This document shows positions 16,546-32,529 of a stretch of DNA of 36,173 bases, one piece after another. Where the stretch lies: contig AYNO01000017.1 of NCBI GenBank assembly GCA_000500915.1, forward strand, positions 1 to 36,173, given 5' to 3'. Both the position numbers and the translations under genes were made by a program. The stretch is from Rhodobacter sp. CACIA14H1 (GTDB lineage: Bacteria > Pseudomonadota > Alphaproteobacteria > Rhodobacterales > Rhodobacteraceae). How positions within the stretch are numbered: the first letter of the stretch is position 1; each line of letters opens with the position of its first letter. The notes beneath the pieces were generated by a model that saw only the letters and a list, made by a program, of their open reading frames with translations, made no database searches and was not told the origin of the DNA.

Positions 16546-17415
16546 TTATCCCCCGGCGCTGGCCCCGGCGCTTGCACGGGCTGCCAGCGCCGCACCTGCG
16601 GTGATCAGGATCGCCGCCGCTAGGATGGTCCATGACGCGGGCGATATGCCCGCGACGACCAAGGCAAGCGTGGACAGCAGGGGCGCGGCGTAGGAGGCGA
16701 CGCCGAGAAGCTGGATGTCGCCCTTCTTCATCCCGATATCCCATGTGAAGAAGGCCGCGCCGACGGGCCCGATGCCCAGCGCCACGATGGACAGCCAGCC
16801 GAGCGGGGTGGCAGGCCAGACCGTTTCCTCGACCAGCGGGTGGACGAGGGCGGACAGGATCGCGGTGCCGAGGCAGTAGATCGTCACGGATTCGGTGGGG
16901 ATGTCGCCAAGGCGGCGGGACAGGGTGGAATATCCCGCCCAAGTGACCGCGCAGAGGAAGCCGAGGAAGAGGCCCGTCGCCGTGGCATTGCCGCCCGCAT
17001 CGCGGCCCATGACGATGAGCGCGGCGCCCGCGAAGGCGATCAACGCGCCGGTCAGGGCCAGCGGGCGCAGCCGTTCGCCGGGCAGGAAGCTGGCGAAAAG
17101 CACGATGAACAGGGGCCAGAGATAGGCCATGAGGCCGGTTTCCGCCGCCGGTGCGATGCGGAAGGCGGTGAAATAGAGCGCGTGATAGCCGAAGAGGCCG
17201 ATGATGCCGAAGGCATAGACGCGCCACGGGATGCCGCGCAGGCGGCCGATGCCGTTGCGCAGCGTCCAGATCAGGCCCAGCGTCCCGCCGATGCCGAAGG
17301 TCAGCGCATTCAGCAGGAAGGGCGGGACCGGGGCGCTGCCGATGGTGAAGAGGGCAAGGAGGGACCACATCAGGACGGCGGTGAAGCCGATGGCGGTGGC
17401 GCGTTGGCTGGTCAT
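16546..17415 (-). CDS. DMT-family (EamA) transporter
   Basis: A 289-residue inner-membrane protein with about ten hydrophobic segments in two EamA repeats: residues 8-140 beginning ATAIGFTAVLMWSLLALFTIGSAPVPPFLLNAL, and the second half with YSTLSRRLGDIPTESVTIYCLGTAILSALVHPLVEE and GPVGAAFFTWDIGMKKGDIQLLGVASYAAPLLSTLALVVAG. The opening resembles the YddG aromatic amino acid exporter branch, but the substrate is not proven. I chose the ATG at 17415, which has GGGGA just upstream; a TTG four codons earlier is possible. The double palindrome at 17424-17469 ends eight bases before the start codon, so that element lies in the leader or promoter of this gene. Confidence 0.9.
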   Translation of the reverse strand: MTSQRATAIGFTAVLMWSLLALFTIGSAPVPPFLLNALTFGIGGTLGLIWTLRNGIGRLRGIPWRVYAFGIIGLFGYHALYFTAFRIAPAAETGLMAYLWPLFIVLFASFLPGERLRPLALTGALIAFAGAALIVMGRDAGGNATATGLFLGFLCAVTWAGYSTLSRRLGDIPTESVTIYCLGTAILSALVHPLVEETVWPATPLGWLSIVALGIGPVGAAFFTWDIGMKKGDIQLLGVASYAAPLLSTLALVVAGISPASWTILAAAILITAGAALAARASAGASAGG

Positions 17416-17423
17416 TTTTCCCC

Positions 17424-17469
17424 GCAAATTCCTTCGAAGGAATTTGCAAAAATCTTCGAAGATTTTTGC
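17424..17469. repeat. Tandem TTCGAA double palindrome, copy A
   Basis: Two perfect 24-nt palindromes (17424-17447 and 17446-17469) share a GC at their junction. Left arms are GCAAATTCC and GCAAAAATC, each followed by the core TTCGAA and its mirror arm. Centres are 22 bp apart. The island is A/T-rich in a G/C-rich region. It lies between the phaB terminator and the transporter start codon. Related copies are at 28073-28116 and 31962-32007. Confidence 0.9.
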
Positions 17470-17503
17470 GTTGCGCGGGTTTTAGCGGTTCGCTTCGCAA
17501 AGC

Positions 17504-17528
17504 AAAAGGCCCGCGCTGGGCGCGGGCC
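17504..17528 (-). terminator. Intrinsic terminator of phaB
   Basis: Read on the minus strand, GGCCCGCG pairs with CGCGGGCC over 8 bp around the loop CCCAG, followed directly by TTTTGC. This is a textbook rho-independent terminator 78 bases past the phaB stop codon. Confidence 0.75.
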
Positions 17529-17547
17529 GTTCGATCGGGTCGGGAAA

Positions 17548-17594
17548 GCGATTTCTGACGCAGAAATCGCGGCGGAATTTGCGTCAAATTCCGC
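17548..17594. repeat. Twin hairpins with mutually complementary loops
   Basis: Hairpin 1 (17548-17570) has arms GCGATTTCT/AGAAATCGC and loop GACGC. Hairpin 2 (17572-17594) has arms GCGGAATTT/AAATTCCGC and loop GCGTC. Both stems are perfect 9-bp stems, and the two loops are reverse complements, so a kissing-loop contact is possible. The pair begins 11 bases past the phaB stop, before the G/C terminator, so it lies in the phaB 3' untranslated region. Confidence 0.85.
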
Positions 17595-17605
17595 TGCCCC
17601 GGCTG

Positions 17606-18331
17606 TCAGACGAAGAACTGCCCGCCATTGGCCGAGATGGTGGAGCCGGTGATGAAGCCCGCGTCGTCGGAGGCGAGGAAGACCACCGTCCGCGCAATTT
17701 CCTCCGGCTCGCCCAGACGGCCCACCGGAATCTGCGGGATGATGCGTTCGTTCAGCACCTTTTCGTCGATGGCCTTGACCATTTCCGTGGCGATGTAGCC
17801 CGGGCAGATGGCGTTGACGGTGATGCCCGCCCGCGCCCCTTCCTGTGCCAGCGCCTTGGTGAAGCCCAGATCGCCCGATTTGGCGGCGGAATAGTTGGCC
17901 TGCCCCGCCTGCCCCTTCTGCCCGTTGATGGAAGAGATGTTGATCACCCGCCCGAACTTGCGGTCGCGCATCCCCGACCAGAGCGGATGGGTCATGTTGA
18001 ACAGGCCGGTCAGGTTGGTGTCGATGACCTCTTTCCACTGCTGCGGCGTCATCTTGTGGAACATGGCGTCGCGGGTGATGCCCGCATTGTTCACCAGAAC
18101 GTCCACGGGGCCGACCTCGGCCTCGACCCGCTTGATGCCTTCGACGCAGGCGTCGTAATCCGCGACGGACCATTTGAAGGTCGGGATGCCGGTTTCCTTG
18201 GTGAAGGCGGCCGCCGCCTCGTCATTGCCGGCGTAGTTGGCCGCCACCTTGTAGCCCGCCGCCTTCAGCGCCACCGAAATCGCGGCGCCGATCCCGCGCG
18301 AACCACCCGTCACCAAAGCCACTCGTGCCAT
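17606..18331 (-). CDS. phaB: Acetoacetyl-CoA reductase PhaB
   Basis: Reduces acetoacetyl-CoA to (R)-3-hydroxybutyryl-CoA with NADPH, the second step of polyhydroxybutyrate synthesis. The 241-residue short-chain dehydrogenase has the cofactor motif TGGSRGIG (8-15), NNAG (81-84) and the catalytic Ser134, Tyr147 and Lys151 (INISSINGQKGQAGQANYSAAKSG). The segment ITRDAMFHKMTPQQWKEVIDTNLTGLFN is diagnostic of PhaB rather than FabG. The ribosome site AGGAGG lies 10-15 bases before the ATG. Upstream on the same strand are a small secreted protein gene and phaA; a separate promoter is possible in the 138-base gap, which also holds TGC/GCA inverted repeats. A strong intrinsic terminator follows. Confidence 0.96.
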   Translation of the reverse strand: MARVALVTGGSRGIGAAISVALKAAGYKVAANYAGNDEAAAAFTKETGIPTFKWSVADYDACVEGIKRVEAEVGPVDVLVNNAGITRDAMFHKMTPQQWKEVIDTNLTGLFNMTHPLWSGMRDRKFGRVINISSINGQKGQAGQANYSAAKSGDLGFTKALAQEGARAGITVNAICPGYIATEMVKAIDEKVLNERIIPQIPVGRLGEPEEIARTVVFLASDDAGFITGSTISANGGQFFV

Positions 18332-27045: not shown

Positions 27046-28071
27046 ATGCCCGACCAGCACGACAGACCGGAACCGCTCGGCACCTTCCTGAGGGCCGAGG
27101 ACGCCCCCGCCTTCGGCGCGACCGAGGTGGTGGGCGCGGCGCTGGCGGCGGTCTGGGTTGTGGCGGTGGCGGCCTATGCCCTGCTTTCCCCGTCGCCGGA
27201 GGGCGGGGGCGGGGCCGCGGGCCTGCTGGCGACACTGTTCGCGCTCTTCGTGCCGCTGGCGCTGATCTGGGGGGCGGTGTCGATGCTGCGGTCCATCCGC
27301 GTCCTGCGGGCCGAGGCGGCGCGGCTGCAGGCGACGGTGGATGCGATGCGCAATGCCTATCTGGTCAGCCAGCAATCCTCGGCCGCGATCAAGCCGGTGG
27401 TGGAACAGCGTCTGGAAGAGGTGGCACAGGTCACGAAAGAGGCGGCGGGCGTGCTGGCCACGTTCCAGACCCGCCGCGACCCTGCCCTCAGCGTGCCCTC
27501 CGCCGACCGCAAGGCCGCGCTGGTGCCGCCGCAGCGCCCCGCGCCGCAGGATGAACAGCCCGCGCTGGCCCTTGGCACCCCTGCCGAGGACCTGCGCCCG
27601 CCGCTGTCCATCGCCGATTTCATCCGTGCGCTGAACTTCCCCGAAGGCCCGGACGACCGCGAGGGGTTCCGCGCCCTGCGGCTGGCGCTGGAGGACCGGA
27701 CCACGGCGAAACTGATCCGCGCGGCGCAGGACGTGCTGACCCTGCTGTCGCAGGAAGGCATCTACATGGACGACCTGCGCCCCGAACGGGCGCGGCCGGA
27801 ACTGTGGCGCCGCTTTGCCGCCGGCGAACGGGGTCGCACCATCTCGGGGCTGGGGGGGATACGCGACCGTTCCTCGCTGGCGCTGACGGCGTCGCGGATG
27901 CGCGAGGACCCCGTCTTCCGCGATGCGGGCCACCATTTTCTGCGGACCTTCGACAAGACCTTCCAGGAATTCGAACAGAATGCCTCGGACGCGGACCTTG
28001 CCGAACTGTCGGACACCCGCACCGCCCGCGCCTTCATGCTGTTCGGGCGCGTGACGGGGACGTTCGACTGA
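27046..28071 (+). CDS. Two-TM coiled-coil protein of unknown function
   Basis: A 341-residue protein I recognise only as a Rhodobacterales-type hypothetical. An N-terminal cytoplasmic tail (1-25) leads to two hydrophobic segments (about 27-47 and 57-77). A coiled-coil stretch follows (about 80-140: SIRVLRAEAARLQATVDAMR and EQRLEEVAQVTKEAAGVLATF), then a Pro-rich linker (about 150-180) and a helical C-terminal domain (LSIADFIRALNFPEGPDDREGFRALRLALED to the end). The design of membrane hairpin, coil and soluble domain suggests a scaffold, possibly of the envelope. It follows greA by 23 bases. Its stop is two bases before the double palindrome, copy B. Confidence 0.85.
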   Translation: MPDQHDRPEPLGTFLRAEDAPAFGATEVVGAALAAVWVVAVAAYALLSPSPEGGGGAAGLLATLFALFVPLALIWGAVSMLRSIRVLRAEAARLQATVDAMRNAYLVSQQSSAAIKPVVEQRLEEVAQVTKEAAGVLATFQTRRDPALSVPSADRKAALVPPQRPAPQDEQPALALGTPAEDLRPPLSIADFIRALNFPEGPDDREGFRALRLALEDRTTAKLIRAAQDVLTLLSQEGIYMDDLRPERARPELWRRFAAGERGRTISGLGGIRDRSSLALTASRMREDPVFRDAGHHFLRTFDKTFQEFEQNASDADLAELSDTRTARAFMLFGRVTGTFD

Positions 28072-28072
28072 C

Positions 28073-28116
28073 CAAAAATCTTCGAAGATTTTTGCAAATT
28101 TCTTCGAAGAAATTTG
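28073..28116. repeat. Tandem TTCGAA double palindrome, copy B
   Basis: Two perfect 22-nt palindromes, 28073-28094 (arm CAAAAATC) and 28095-28116 (arm CAAATTTC), each around TTCGAA, with centres 22 bp apart. It lies between two convergent genes, two bases past one stop and 13 past the other. The first unit matches the second unit of copy A; the second matches the first unit of copy C. It probably works in part as a bidirectional terminator. Confidence 0.9.
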
Positions 28117-28129
28117 GGTGGCGGCACCG

Positions 28130-29080
28130 CTACCGGCGCGGCGCCGCAGCCCGCCGCAGCCTGTCGTTGACCGCCCGCCCGAGCCCCACCTCCGGCACGG
28201 GCGCAAAGGCGATCCGCCCCGAAGGCCCCGCCAGATCGTCCGCCTCGCGCAGCACGTGGAACAGCCGCGCCGCCGCCTCCACCACATCGCCCGACTCCGA
28301 CAGCGTCAGCGCCGCCCCGTCGCAGGGGCCGAAGCCCACGAAGACCTCGCCCGGCTTTGGCCGCAGGACATCCAGCCGCACCCCCGCCGCGGGCGCGTAA
28401 TGGCTGGCCAACTGCCCCGGTGCGTTCGGCTTCTCGGCCGATCCGCCCGCCACCAGCGCGACGCCCAGCAGGGATTCGATCTCTTCCGCCGCGACGCCGC
28501 CCGGGCGCAGCAGGGCCGCCGCACCGTCCAGCCCGAGGATCGTCGATTCCACCCCCACCGCGCAGGCGCCGCCGTCCAGCACCGCCTCGATCCGCCCGGA
28601 CAGCCCCGCCCGCACATGCGCGGCCCGCGTGGGGGACACCTTGCCGGACGGGTTGGCCGACGGCGCCGCCAGCGGGCCGCCGAAGGCCCGCAGCAGGGCC
28701 CGCGCCACCGGATGCGCCGGCACGCGGATCGCCACCGTCGCAAGCCCCGCCGTCACGAGGGGCGACAACCCCGACCCGTCGCGCAGGGGCAGCACCATGG
28801 TCAGTGGGCCGGGCCAGAAGGCGGCGGCCACCGCCTCGGCCCTGTCGTCGAACAGGGCATAGCCCCGCGCCGCCGCCACGTCGGGCACATGCACGATCAG
28901 CGGGTTGAACCGGGGCCGCCCCTTGGCGTCGAAGATCCGCGCCACGGCCAGATCGTCCCGCGCGTCGCCGCCCAGGCCATAGACCGTCTCGGTCGGGAAG
29001 GCGACCAGCCCCCCGCCCCGCAGCACCTCGGCCGCGCGTGCGATCCCTTCCGGGCTATCGGTCAAATCCTCGGTCACCAT
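28130..29080 (-). CDS. L-threonylcarbamoyladenylate synthase (Sua5/YrdC family)
   Basis: Makes threonylcarbamoyl-AMP from threonine, bicarbonate and ATP for the t6A modification of ANN-decoding tRNAs. The 316-residue protein has the YrdC domain (GGLVAFPTETVYGLGGDARDDLAVARIFDAKGRPRFNPLIVHV, then VAIRVPAHPVARALL and PLAAPSANPSGKVSPT) and the extra Sua5 C-terminal domain (about 200-316), so it is the long Sua5 type, not short TsaC. I chose the ATG at 29080; the ribosome site is poor, and a TTG at 29122 is an alternative. It diverges from the acyl-CoA dehydrogenase gene and converges on the coiled-coil gene. Confidence 0.93.
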   Translation of the reverse strand: MVTEDLTDSPEGIARAAEVLRGGGLVAFPTETVYGLGGDARDDLAVARIFDAKGRPRFNPLIVHVPDVAAARGYALFDDRAEAVAAAFWPGPLTMVLPLRDGSGLSPLVTAGLATVAIRVPAHPVARALLRAFGGPLAAPSANPSGKVSPTRAAHVRAGLSGRIEAVLDGGACAVGVESTILGLDGAAALLRPGGVAAEEIESLLGVALVAGGSAEKPNAPGQLASHYAPAAGVRLDVLRPKPGEVFVGFGPCDGAALTLSESGDVVEAAARLFHVLREADDLAGPSGRIAFAPVPEVGLGRAVNDRLRRAAAPRR

Positions 29081-29197: not shown

Positions 29198-30901
29198 ATG
29201 CCCTACCGCGCCCCGCTGTCCGATTACGAATTCCTGCTGGACCATATCCTCGGCTATGACCGCCTGACGGAAGCGGATCGCTTTTCCGACGTGCCGCGCG
29301 ATACGGCCACCGCCATCCTGACCGAGGCGGCACGTCTTGCCGAAACCACGCTCGCGCCGCTGAACCGGGCCGGCGACCGCCACCCCGCGCGGCTGGAGAA
29401 CGGCATCGTCCGCACCTCGCCCGGTTTTGCCGAGGCCTATCGCGCCATTGCCGAAGGCGGCTGGGTCGGCATGTCCGCCCGCCCCGAAAACGGCGGCATG
29501 GGCCTGCCGATGACGCTGGCCACGGCCGTGAACGAAATGATGTCGGCGGCCTGCCTGTCGCTGCAGGTCAACCCGCTGCTGACGCAAGGCCAGATCGAGG
29601 CGCTGGAGCATCACGCCTCGCCCGCGATCCGGGCGCTTTACCTGCCGAAGCTGACATCGGGGGAATGGTCGGGCACGATGAACCTGACCGAACCGCAGGC
29701 CGGGTCGGATGTCGGCGCCCTGCGCAGCAAGGCAGAGCCGCGGGACGACGGGACCTATGCGATCACCGGCCAGAAGATCTACATCTCCTGGGGGGATGCG
29801 GATTTCATCCCGAATGTCTGCCACCTTGTCCTTGCCCGCCTGCCCGATGGCGCGGCAGGCACTGCGGGCATCTCGCTCTTCCTCGTGCCGAAGTTCCTGC
29901 CCGATGCGGATGGCAACCCCGGCCAGCGCAACGCTCTGTCGGTCGTCAGCCTGGAACACAAGATGGGCCTGCACGGGTCGCCGACCTGCGTCATGCAGTA
30001 TGACGGCGCGACCGGCTGGCTGGTGGGCGAGGCGCACAAGGGCATGGCGGCGATGTTCACCATGATGAACAACGCGAGGCTCGGCGTGGCCGCGCAGGGG
30101 ATCGGCGTGGCCGAGGCCGCCTTCCAGCAGGCGCTGGCCTATGCCGAACAGCGCCAGCAGGGCCGCACCCCGACGGGGCGCAAGCCCATCACCGACCATG
30201 CCGATGTCCGCCGGATGCTGGCGCGGATGCGGGCGCAGCTTTTCTCGGCCCGCGCCATCGCCCTGTCCTGCGCCCATGCGATCGACATGGCCAGCGTGAC
30301 CGGTGCGCCCGAATGGCAGGCCCGCGCCGCGCTGCTGACCCCCATCGCCAAGGCCTATGGCACCGATACGGGCAACGAACTGGCGCATCTGTCCATCCAG
30401 ATCCACGGCGGCATGGGCTTTGTCGAGGAGACGGGCGTCGCGCAATTCGCCCGCGACGTGCGCATCACCACCATCTACGAAGGCACCAACGGGATACAGG
30501 CGATGGACCTGACCGCCCGCAAGATGGCCGATGGCGGGGCCGCCGCCTTTGCCCTGATCGACGAGGTGCAGTCGGCGGCCGAAGCCGCCCGCGCCACCCA
30601 TCCCGATCTGGCCCATGACGTCTGGCAGGCCGCCGAGGCCCTGCGCGAGGCGACCGAGACCCTTGTCCGGCAGGACCTGACCGACCGCTTCGCCGGTGCC
30701 GTCCCCTATCTGCGGGCCTTCGCGCTGGTGCTGGGGGCCGATGCCCATCTGCGGGCGGCGCATGTCGCGCAGGGGCCGCGTGCGGCACTCGCCCGCATCG
30801 CGATCCGCCGCCTTCTGCCGGAACATGTGGCGCTTCTGGCCGAAACCCGCGAAGGTGCGGCCAGCCTTTACGCCCTGACTCCGGAAGACCTCGCCGCGTG
30901 A
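29198..30901 (+). CDS. Acyl-CoA dehydrogenase, DmdC/AcdH-like with C-terminal extension
   Basis: An FAD enzyme that oxidises an acyl-CoA to the enoyl-CoA and passes electrons to ETF. The 567 residues are longer than simple acyl-CoA dehydrogenases (about 390) and match the class that includes DmdC (3-methylmercaptopropionyl-CoA dehydrogenase). Visible motifs are MNLTEPQAGSDVGALRS (FAD/substrate), WVG...RPENGGMGLP near the N-terminus, IHGGMGFVEETGVAQFARDVRITTIYEGTNGIQAMDLT with the catalytic Glu in YEGTNG, and the extra C-terminal helical domain. The substrate cannot be told from sequence alone; DMSP breakdown or fatty acid oxidation is possible. AGGAAG lies about 7-12 bases before the ATG. It is coupled by a GTGA overlap to the hydrolase. 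Confidence 0.93.
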   Translation: MPYRAPLSDYEFLLDHILGYDRLTEADRFSDVPRDTATAILTEAARLAETTLAPLNRAGDRHPARLENGIVRTSPGFAEAYRAIAEGGWVGMSARPENGGMGLPMTLATAVNEMMSAACLSLQVNPLLTQGQIEALEHHASPAIRALYLPKLTSGEWSGTMNLTEPQAGSDVGALRSKAEPRDDGTYAITGQKIYISWGDADFIPNVCHLVLARLPDGAAGTAGISLFLVPKFLPDADGNPGQRNALSVVSLEHKMGLHGSPTCVMQYDGATGWLVGEAHKGMAAMFTMMNNARLGVAAQGIGVAEAAFQQALAYAEQRQQGRTPTGRKPITDHADVRRMLARMRAQLFSARAIALSCAHAIDMASVTGAPEWQARAALLTPIAKAYGTDTGNELAHLSIQIHGGMGFVEETGVAQFARDVRITTIYEGTNGIQAMDLTARKMADGGAAAFALIDEVQSAAEAARATHPDLAHDVWQAAEALREATETLVRQDLTDRFAGAVPYLRAFALVLGADAHLRAAHVAQGPRAALARIAIRRLLPEHVALLAETREGAASLYALTPEDLAA

Positions 30902-31938
30902 CACTGCAAGACACTGGCATCCGCCACCCCTTCCCCGACGCCCCCGCCGAAGGGCAGGCGGTGGAGATTGCCGAAGGCATCCTCTGGCTGCGCCTGCCGC
31001 TACCCATGGCGCTGGACCATGTCAACGTCTTCGCGCTGGAGGATGGGGACGGCTGGACGGTGGTGGATACCGGTTTCTCATCGAAACGCGCGAAGGGGAT
31101 ATGGGAGGCGCTGCTTGCGGGTCCGCTGTCGGGGAAGCCCGTCACCCGCGTCATCGTCACCCATTACCACCCCGACCATATGGGCCTTGCCGGCTGGTTC
31201 CAGTCGCGCGGGGCCGAACTGGTGACGACGCGGACGAGCTGGCTTTATGCGCGGATGCTGGTGCTGGACGAACACCCGCTTCCCCTGCCCGAAGCGGTGG
31301 AATTCCAGCGCCGTGCGGGCGTCCCGGCCGACCGGCTGCAGCGCTATGCCACCACGCGCCCCTTCAACTTCGCCGATGTGGTGGACCCGCTTCCCCCGGG
31401 CTTCATCCGCATCCGCGACGGTGACACCCTCTCCGCCGCAGGTCGCCGCTGGGCGGTCCGTACCGGCGACGGCCACGCGCCCGAACACGCGACGCTCTGG
31501 AGCCAGGACGACAACCTGATCCTCGGGGGCGACCAGCTTCTCCCCGGCATCTCGGCCAATATCGGGGTCTATCCCACCGAACCCGATGCCGATCCCCTGA
31601 CCGAATGGCTGGAAAGCTGCGCCCGTCTTGCGCCCCATGCCCGCGAGGACCAGCTTGTCCTGCCCGGCCACAAGCTGCCCTTCACCGGCCTTCCGCTGCG
31701 CCTGCGCCAGATTGCCGAAAACCACGAAGGCGCCCTGTCGCGGCTGCTGGACCACCTGCAGGCGCCCCGCACCGCCGCCGACTGCTTCCTGCCGATCTTC
31801 AAACGGCAGATCGACGGGCCGGAATACGGGATGGCGCTTGTGGAATCGGTCGCCCACCTGAATTGCCTGCTGCGGCGCGGTCAGGTCACGCGGACCCTGT
31901 CGCCGCAGGGCGCGTGGCTGTGGGAACGCAGATCCTGA
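30898..31938 (+). CDS. MBL-fold metallo-hydrolase
   Basis: A 346-residue metallo-beta-lactamase-fold hydrolase. The metal site is visible: THYHPDHMG (HxHxDH), then GDGHAPEHATLW (third His), LGGDQLL (bridging Asp) and LPGHKLPF (last His). The extra C-terminal winged-helix-like part (NHEGALSRLLDHLQ...HLNCLLRRGQV) is typical of the beta-CASP-free LACTB2-like group. A thioester or lactone substrate is plausible beside an acyl-CoA dehydrogenase, but unproven. It starts with GTG overlapping the dehydrogenase TGA (GTGA), which implies coupled translation. A TTCGAA double palindrome begins 24 bases after the stop. Confidence 0.92.
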   Translation: MTLQDTGIRHPFPDAPAEGQAVEIAEGILWLRLPLPMALDHVNVFALEDGDGWTVVDTGFSSKRAKGIWEALLAGPLSGKPVTRVIVTHYHPDHMGLAGWFQSRGAELVTTRTSWLYARMLVLDEHPLPLPEAVEFQRRAGVPADRLQRYATTRPFNFADVVDPLPPGFIRIRDGDTLSAAGRRWAVRTGDGHAPEHATLWSQDDNLILGGDQLLPGISANIGVYPTEPDADPLTEWLESCARLAPHAREDQLVLPGHKLPFTGLPLRLRQIAENHEGALSRLLDHLQAPRTAADCFLPIFKRQIDGPEYGMALVESVAHLNCLLRRGQVTRTLSPQGAWLWERRS

Positions 31939-31961: not shown

Positions 31962-32007
31962 GCAAATTTCTTCGAAGAAATTTGCAAAAGTTTTCGAAAA
32001 CTTTTGC
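31962..32007. repeat. Tandem TTCGAA double palindrome, copy C
   Basis: Two perfect 24-nt palindromes, 31962-31985 (arm GCAAATTTC) and 31984-32007 (arm GCAAAAGTT), share GC and have centres 22 bp apart, the same layout as copy A. It lies between the MBL-fold gene and the DUF6173 gene, ending 39 bases before the latter's ATG. It may end the upstream message, regulate the downstream one, or both. Confidence 0.9.
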
Positions 32008-32046: not shown

Positions 32047-32529
32047 ATGACACAGGACATCGCCACCTCCGCCGAATATGCTGAAACCGCCGCGCTTCCC
32101 CGTGCGGTTGCCACCCATGCCGACCCTGCCGATTGCGGCAAGCTGGAAACCCTGCCGCTGCCGGCGGCCGCGACCCGCAAGCCGGTGGAAGAGAAAAGCC
32201 CCGCCGAATGGGCCTATGAGCGCCTCATCCTTTACATCCAGAACTTCGAATCCCGGCTCGACTCCACGCAGGAAGTGGCGATGGGCTTCACCGGCGGGCA
32301 GGCGGGCGTGCTGACGATCGAGGGGGTGGGGTTCTTCGACCCCGACCTCGTGACCTTCTTCGGGCGGGACGAGGACGGGCTGCGCACCCAGCTCATCCAG
32401 CATGTCACCCAGTTGAACGTCATCCTGCGTGCCGTGCCGAAACAGGAACCCGCCGAACCGCCGCGCCGCATCGGATTCCGGATGATGCGGCAATGGGCGG
32501 GCGGCGAATCGGGCGACGCCTCGGCCTGA
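32047..32529 (+). CDS. DUF6173 family protein
   Basis: A 160-residue soluble protein. After a variable N-terminus (1-50), the conserved core is EWAYERLILYIQNFESRLDSTQEVAMGFTGGQAGVLTIEGVGFFDPDLVTFFGRDEDGLRTQLIQHVTQLNVILRAVPK, which I recognise as the DUF6173 family of alphaproteobacteria. The function is unknown. No Shine-Dalgarno sequence precedes the ATG (upstream is pyrimidine-rich, GTTCCCTGTCCAA), so the message may be leaderless or weakly translated. Copy C of the double palindrome is just upstream, and the aa3 oxidase subunit IV gene follows with its own likely promoter. Confidence 0.87.
   Translation: MTQDIATSAEYAETAALPRAVATHADPADCGKLETLPLPAAATRKPVEEKSPAEWAYERLILYIQNFESRLDSTQEVAMGFTGGQAGVLTIEGVGFFDPDLVTFFGRDEDGLRTQLIQHVTQLNVILRAVPKQEPAEPPRRIGFRMMRQWAGGESGDASA

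Follow-up and report, generated by a model that had tools for sequence, protein, structure and literature searches.

Twin hairpins with unlike stems form a repeated unit at gene ends in Rhodobacter and related genera

Three short intergenic islands of Rhodobacter sp. CACIA14H1 belong to a repeated family in which two abutting hairpins, each pairing with itself and rarely able to pair with its neighbor, lie at the ends of genes. The letters of the stems change in a compensated manner, the two stems of one unit are kept unlike, and the place behind stop codons recurs from site to site. From its sequence and distribution, the unit points to an undescribed gene-end signal. We tentatively favor the reading, at a little under an even chance, that it is a strand-symmetric twin hairpin that acts as RNA where transcripts end and cistrons meet.

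The islands are located in a 36,173-nucleotide stretch (contig AYNO01000017.1; hereafter, the window) with a GC content of 68.5%, against which they stand out as A/T-rich. As summarized in Table 1, each island is CAAA-nnnn-TTCGAA-nnnn-TTTG twice in contact (44 bp in total), and the TTCGAA centers are 22 bp apart in each. The perfect palindromes, their spacing, and their arm letters are thus exactly as the original prediction gave them. Island 1 sits behind the end of an upstream minus-strand gene and approximately 9 nt 5' of the start codon of a minus-strand YddG-like exporter gene, and orthologous units were found in 7 other loci. Island 2 begins 1 nt past the stop codon of a plus-strand gene and ends 13 nt from the end of a convergent minus-strand gene, and island 3 lies 24 nt past a plus-strand stop codon and 40 nt ahead of the next plus-strand start codon. 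Those flanking genes with a nameable family are ordinary chromosomal genes. The GC-rich hairpin next to island 1 is one of 11 terminator-like consensus matches, with 10.9 expected in shuffles (i.e., no enrichment). The two RNA hairpins foreseen for every island are predicted for islands 1 and 3, which fold as twins; island 2 is the exception, with a single long hairpin predicted by both RNA and DNA parameters.

Table 1. Features in and around the three islands of the window
Feature	Position	Strand	Details
Aromatic amino acid exporter YddG family gene	16546-17415	-	Downstream of island 1
Island 1, twin-hairpin unit	17424-17469	.	Hairpins 17425-17446 and 17447-17468; TTCGAA at 17433/17455; covariance-model match
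GC-rich terminator-like hairpin with T-rich tail	17508-17528	-	Between island 1 and upstream gene; consensus match only
Second kind of tandem hairpin, unlike stems	17548-17594	.	GCGATTTCTG..CAGAAATCGC and GCGGAATTTG..CAAATTCCGC; related design, separate family
Acetoacetyl-CoA reductase family gene	17606-18274	-	Upstream of island 1
Gene ending at island 2	27046-28071	+	No Pfam or NCBIfam match at the cut-offs used
Island 2, twin-hairpin unit	28073-28116	.	Hairpins 28073-28094 and 28095-28116; TTCGAA at 28081/28103
L-threonylcarbamoyladenylate synthase gene	28130-29080	-	Convergent, ending at island 2
Metallo-beta-lactamase-fold superfamily hydrolase gene (broad fold family)	30898-31938	+	Ends ahead of island 3
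Island 3, twin-hairpin unit	31962-32007	.	Hairpins 31963-31984 and 31985-32006; TTCGAA at 31971/31993
DUF6173 gene	32047-32529	+	Starts past island 3

In general, the unit takes the form of two abutting hairpins in a CAAA...TTTG frame, with stems of 9-10 bp and loops of mostly 3-5 nt, and this twin architecture is well supported. The spacing of 22 bp arises because it is the length of one palindrome and no spacer separates the hairpins. Among 233 units (loci L001-L269), the spacing is 22 in 224, 23 in 8, and 24 in 1, and a spacing of 23 is frequent in distant genera, so that the fixed distance originally proposed describes most units without being strict. The central hexamer is TTCGAA in 407 of the 466 hairpins and otherwise mostly TTCCAA, TTTGAA, TTGGAA, or TTCAAA, and its central CG varies without compensation. 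All 18 stem pairs are of the Watson-Crick type in 190 of the 233 units, a proportion biased upward by the requirement of at least 15 of 18 pairs for entry into this set. In ten other genera the loops are diverse (mostly 3-5 nt), and the CAAA...TTTG frame, 9-11 bp stems, and contact between the hairpins are retained in 45 of 60 loci, which yielded 46 pairs (one of them, at L304, is probably unrelated); the other 15 loci match the model without a clean twin at the scan settings. The TTCGAA center and the strict 22-bp spacing are not the essence of the unit. The arm words form a small dictionary common to different genera, in which AAATTCC, AAATTTC, AAAATCC, AAAAGTT, AAATCTT, and AAAAATC make up 239 of 322 (L001-L168). 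Each hairpin is weak, at approximately -6.5 kcal/mol, and the commonest loop is UCGA. According to the accessible sections of one report, Rhodobacter sphaeroides RNase E prefers AU-rich sites, and a small fraction of the 5' ends enriched in an rne mutant carry UCGA (PMC6238624); the match to the loop is a lead only.

The original prediction held that self-complementarity is kept by matched changes, and the larger sets bear this out. Scored at the four variable positions, 97.5-99.4% of 322 palindromes have matching arms, compared with 38-55% if the arms were independent; this pairing is biased upward, because a unit entered the set only when both of its palindromes had 6 or more of the 8 arm positions matching (161 of 171 units, with 10 dropped). 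In a 66-unit alignment, double-sided changes occur in 11 of the 18 pairs (209 cells vs. 65 in shuffles), and the covariation score is 0.48, compared with 0.16 in shuffled and 0.03-0.17 in slid controls. This alignment holds 66 of 82 sequences; the 99.7% pairing in it, and likewise the covariance model built from it, are flattering because the 16 omitted rows are mostly imperfect or odd-ended (13, plus 3 perfect ones).

Comparison of orthologous sites gives the same picture of stems that change in pairs. In 99 comparisons, the identity is 93% within the unit and 46% in the adjacent 20 + 20 nt, where the ungapped alignment understates the true flank identity. The differences at stem pairs are compensated in 103 cases and uncompensated in 39, counted by comparing the first member of each group with the others, so that shared changes enter more than once. 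The site of island 2 provides an example: in the congener G003, letters are replaced in both hairpins, including the loops, with the pairing intact, and the flanking genes are 81% and 71% identical. Three further congeners (G001, G005, and G007) retain the unit at this site; in G002, G006, and G008, the two genes have become separated, and no unit was found within 200 nt behind either gene; G004 is uninformative. Templated mutation in hairpins may help to keep the stems, but by itself it leaves the difference between the twins unexplained.

The two arm words of a unit are within one mismatch of each other at only 2 of 128 independent sites, whereas 38.1 are expected and the lowest of 5000 shuffles gave 22 (one unit was taken per orthologous site, and the expectation is the random pairing of the same words). 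Within the genome of CACIA14H1, near-like arms occur at 1 of 38 sites, compared with 12.7 expected and 4 in the lowest shuffle. This twin-difference rule is unaffected by the arm-matching filter. When all pairings of 22 natural TTCGAA palindromes were folded as RNA, the twin was the best fold in 0, 5, 89, and 99% of those with 0, 1, 2, and 3 arm differences, respectively, whereas DNA parameters gave 0, 67, 100, and 100%. Since the two thresholds differ in this way, the natural limit of stem difference fits RNA better than DNA. Twin folds are predicted for 95% of 61 natural units, 76% of random re-pairings, and 4% of identical pairs. In the distant genera, 40 of the 46 pairs fold as twins; 8 have arms within one difference, and 6 of these 8 still fold as twins, presumably because their loops differ. 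By these predicted folds, the rule therefore seems to concern folding rather than the arm words. The order of the stronger and weaker hairpin along the mRNA shows no bias (32 vs. 30 of 73, p = 0.74).

The three islands belong to a larger repeated family, as the original prediction supposed. The genome of CACIA14H1 (3.87 Mb, 236 contigs) contains 42 TTCGAA pairs 4-34 bp apart, compared with 5 for the reversed control pattern, and 33 of the 42 are the twin-hairpin unit, 28 at a spacing of 22 and 5 at 23 (a 34th row of the unit list, L003, is unrelated and was dropped). The covariance model from the 66 units, whose E-values are rough, gave at least 92 matches at E ≤ 0.001 over both strands, which corresponds to approximately 46 units. 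No tandem hairpin pair arose in any of three Markov-1 simulations of 211,322 bases, the length of the loci from this genome, compared with 41 observed in these loci, most of which were fetched because they bear the unit. In the family, which the record names suggest to be Rhodobacteraceae in the wide sense, the strict pattern is matched in 11 of 394 genomes and the covariance model in at least 29 of 160 genomes, i.e., in at least 28 of 159 sampled genera with Rhodobacter included; in a class-wide draw of 192 genomes, with matches counted as lower bounds, CACIA14H1 was the only one to match the model. The named records with the strict pattern (at least 114 stretches, 80 titles listed) are from Rhodobacter, Tabrizicola, Pseudorhodobacter, Fuscovulum, Pseudogemmobacter, and other Rhodobacterales, and the 4 of the 80 listed titles with other labels are all metagenome-assembled genomes. 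Phage records gave no match to the unit, and Leisingera plasmids gave two weak partial matches. The strict pattern was also observed in two IMG/VR contigs (L039:14046-14073 and L040:4726-4753), which may be host DNA or proviruses.

Several of these distributional features would suit a mobile palindromic repeat, either selfish or neutral, that the host tolerates nowhere but at gene ends. Its pairing would then be kept by hairpin-templated mutation, and near-identical twins would be lost by slippage. A mobile palindromic unit was among the original suggestions, and we regard this reading as rather unlikely but still a candidate. The copy number varies widely within the genus (G000-G008), from at least 92 model matches in CACIA14H1 to at least 49, 20, 42, 7, 66, 34, 50, and 2 in eight congeners (the last in G008); approximately 128 independent sites lack flanking similarity; the small dictionary of arm words recurs across genera; and 57 of the 103 compensated changes require transversions on both sides, which templated mutation could produce without selection. 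However, many sites are shared between genomes, and 53 groups of orthologous sites are common to different loci (158 units, with variation in 45 groups). The expected decay products were not seen either: five seemingly single palindromes in the genome of CACIA14H1, among the matches listed, all have a partner hairpin with other loop letters, and single palindromes as decay products were rejected accordingly. The near-identical arms kept in distant genera when the loops differ are not predicted by slippage, and a Y1 transposase of the RAYT type (PF01797) gave no match in 17 of 18 genomes (G111 has two; the search rings in 5 of 14 controls), although another enzyme is possible.

The unit was compared with REP elements. 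As described in the accessible sections of PMC2817692, REPs and BIMEs are numerous intergenic hairpin-forming palindromes, often at gene ends and paired; the palindrome of a REP is GC-rich and imperfect, with a GT(A/G)G head and an associated RAYT transposase. The unit is likewise extragenic and multicopy; its stems are instead A/T-rich and near-perfect, its paired palindromes are in contact and have different stems, and the flanks of 33 units of CACIA14H1 share no GT(A/G)G head. Membership in the REP/RAYT group was rejected on the missing head, the nature of the stems, and the lack of a RAYT match in 17 of 18 genomes. None of the names Rhodobacter, Tabrizicola, and Paracoccus occurs in the main text of the RepRanger REP survey (PMC12306157).

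The placement of the unit is bound to gene 3' ends. Of 201 neighboring 3' ends, 147 are within 20 bp of the unit, as are both ends in 35 of 50 convergent cases, which agrees with the suggestion that gene ends are the preferred location. In 93 codirectional cases, the preceding stop codon is a median of 10 bp away and the following start codon a median of 33 bp, and 61% of the codirectional units are within 15 bp of the stop codon, compared with 32% under random placement. The expectation that the unit never falls inside a gene is correct for 226 of 233 units, which have no overlap with a predicted gene, but the overlap is 1-15 nt in 5 others and longer in 2, with gene calls taken from a crude codon-usage script.

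Placement also speaks for a bidirectional transcription terminator composed of tandem hairpins without a U-tract and acting mainly on RNA polymerase, which we consider unlikely. Among 161 units, the flanking genes are codirectional in 94 cases, convergent in 50, and divergent in 8 (for 9, a neighbor is missing), whereas the 668 intergenic regions of at least 46 bp in the same loci are codirectional in 424, convergent in 105, and divergent in 139 cases, so that convergent regions are enriched (50/152 vs. 105/668) and divergent ones rare (8/152 vs. 139/668); some of these loci overlap and are counted twice, and nearly all were fetched because they bear the unit. At 74 of 145 convergent gene ends, fewer than 20 nt are left outside the unit, which thus nearly fills the gap. 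Against this, the codirectional majority includes 53 of 93 cases with the next start codon within 50 bp, leaving little room for a new promoter, and the A/T-rich stems form weak hairpins. A U-tract is required of an intrinsic terminator, and at least 5 T among the 8 nt behind the unit were found in only 2 of 281 cases, with 4 of 8 in a further 9. The classical tandem terminator mentioned among the original suggestions is therefore unsupported, and the canonical intrinsic terminator was rejected for the same lack, even though the hairpins do stand behind stop codons. Exclusion of other terminator-like GC hairpins near the units, which a first comparison suggested, left no consistent effect once the free length was matched. 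Known bidirectional intrinsic terminators, in the accessible parts of PMC7566282 and PMC5381666, resemble the unit in that one hairpin is common to two convergent genes and its stem shows compensatory changes, but the unit differs in its two hairpins, its weak A/T-rich stems, its lack of a U-tract, and its greater number of codirectional than convergent copies.

The RNA reading would accommodate both kinds of placement. Because of the palindromy, both strands share the structure, which suits convergent genes; either strand, if transcribed, would yield an identical pair of neighboring A/U-rich hairpins. Placed between convergent genes, the unit would close the 3' ends of both mRNAs; where it separates a stop codon from the start codon of the next gene, it would cap the upstream cistron and set apart the next ribosome-binding site in the manner of an intercistronic stabilizing hairpin. 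It may serve as a barrier to 3' exonucleases and perhaps aid termination. A complete terminator is unlikely near a start codon, and therefore 3'-end protection or cistron separation fits more sites than termination alone. Hairpins in RNA at the end of a message are suggested by the self-pairing stems, the freer loops, the avoidance of cross-pairing at the RNA threshold, and the place behind stop codons; we infer from these features that the unit acts as RNA and that its action is 3'-end protection or formation. Island 1 fits the separation role only, since it lies just before a start codon and beyond the terminator-like hairpin and so leaves the upstream gene uncapped. The observations that weigh against this reading are the weakness of the hairpins, the single-hairpin fold of island 2, the position of island 1, the 57 of 103 compensated changes with transversions on both sides, the 15 of 60 distant loci without a clean twin, and a null wobble test, in which sense-strand mismatches in the 233-unit set were G-U in 10 and A-C in 9 cases, with no sign of RNA-level selection.

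An intercistronic mRNA-stabilizing hairpin of a related genus is a works-like analogue of the RNA reading, since it too is a hairpin between cistrons, as are the 94 units between codirectional genes; it is one operon-specific structure and not a repeated family, and it is likened by description, not by sequence. The GeSTer scheme reportedly includes tandem-hairpin terminator shapes without a U-tract, as predicted shapes only; these are said to resemble the unit in having two hairpins in a row past a stop codon and to differ in having no common sequence frame or unlike-stem rule.

That the unit instead acts as DNA, either as a cruciform or as a protein-binding site (e.g., for a nucleoid protein, gyrase, or a dimeric regulator), is improbable. 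The perfect A/T-rich palindromes in a G/C-rich genome, the mismatches without strand asymmetry, and the few units held by divergent regions would agree with such a site, but the central dinucleotide and the spacing vary, the position is tied to stop codons, and the avoidance of like twins extends to the limit set by RNA folding, although DNA parameters would allow two thirds of one-difference pairs. The more specific proposal that two protein dimers share one DNA face is contradicted by the tolerated spacing of 23, the uncompensated central CG, and palindromes kept different, because like protein sites would not need unlike palindromes; the tandem operator of a dimeric DNA-binding protein in fixed helical phase was rejected for these reasons.

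No known family accounts for the unit, in agreement with the original impression: no description was found in the searched libraries or in the titles and abstract openings among the matches listed, with subscription papers mostly outside this search. Rfam 15 gave no match above the gathering threshold in the window and only sub-threshold matches at 17400-17620, and a known RNA family was rejected for the window. We class the unit with the hairpin elements that recur at gene ends; its folding rule is unusual.

Repeated gene-end palindromes are often explained by mobile origin, and transcript ends by GC-rich stems and U-tracts; the twin-hairpin unit fits neither picture. It offers a rule measurable from sequence alone, namely, that adjacent hairpins differ enough to avoid joint misfolding, at the threshold set by RNA energies, and it makes testable whether compensated palindromes are kept by folding selection or by templated mutation. 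If the unit acts as RNA, it would give G/C-rich alphaproteobacteria a compact part for 3' ends or junctions that works in both directions. A bolder and doubtful extension is a family-wide punctuation mark of transcripts, in which the stem letters might drift within the small dictionary provided that each stem keeps to its own pairing and does not pair with its neighbor, a dedicated RNA-binding or processing factor might read the constant CAAA...UUUG, and other families of the same design might exist beside it, such as that at 17548-17594. If this is true, the 3'-end and cistron-junction signals of bacteria would gain a new class.

The second family of tandem hairpins, seen in the window at 17548-17594 (TTTCTG..CAGAAA beside AATTTG..CAAATT, with ACG/CGT-like loops), was also observed at L027:4655-4702, L036:2819-2891, and L172:647-693, and three of its hairpins lie in a row at L036. 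Further tandem hairpins with unlike stems of other sequence are present at L059, L104, L120, L141, and L151. At L165, a site orthologous to the unit of L149, two much longer palindromes stand in a row instead.
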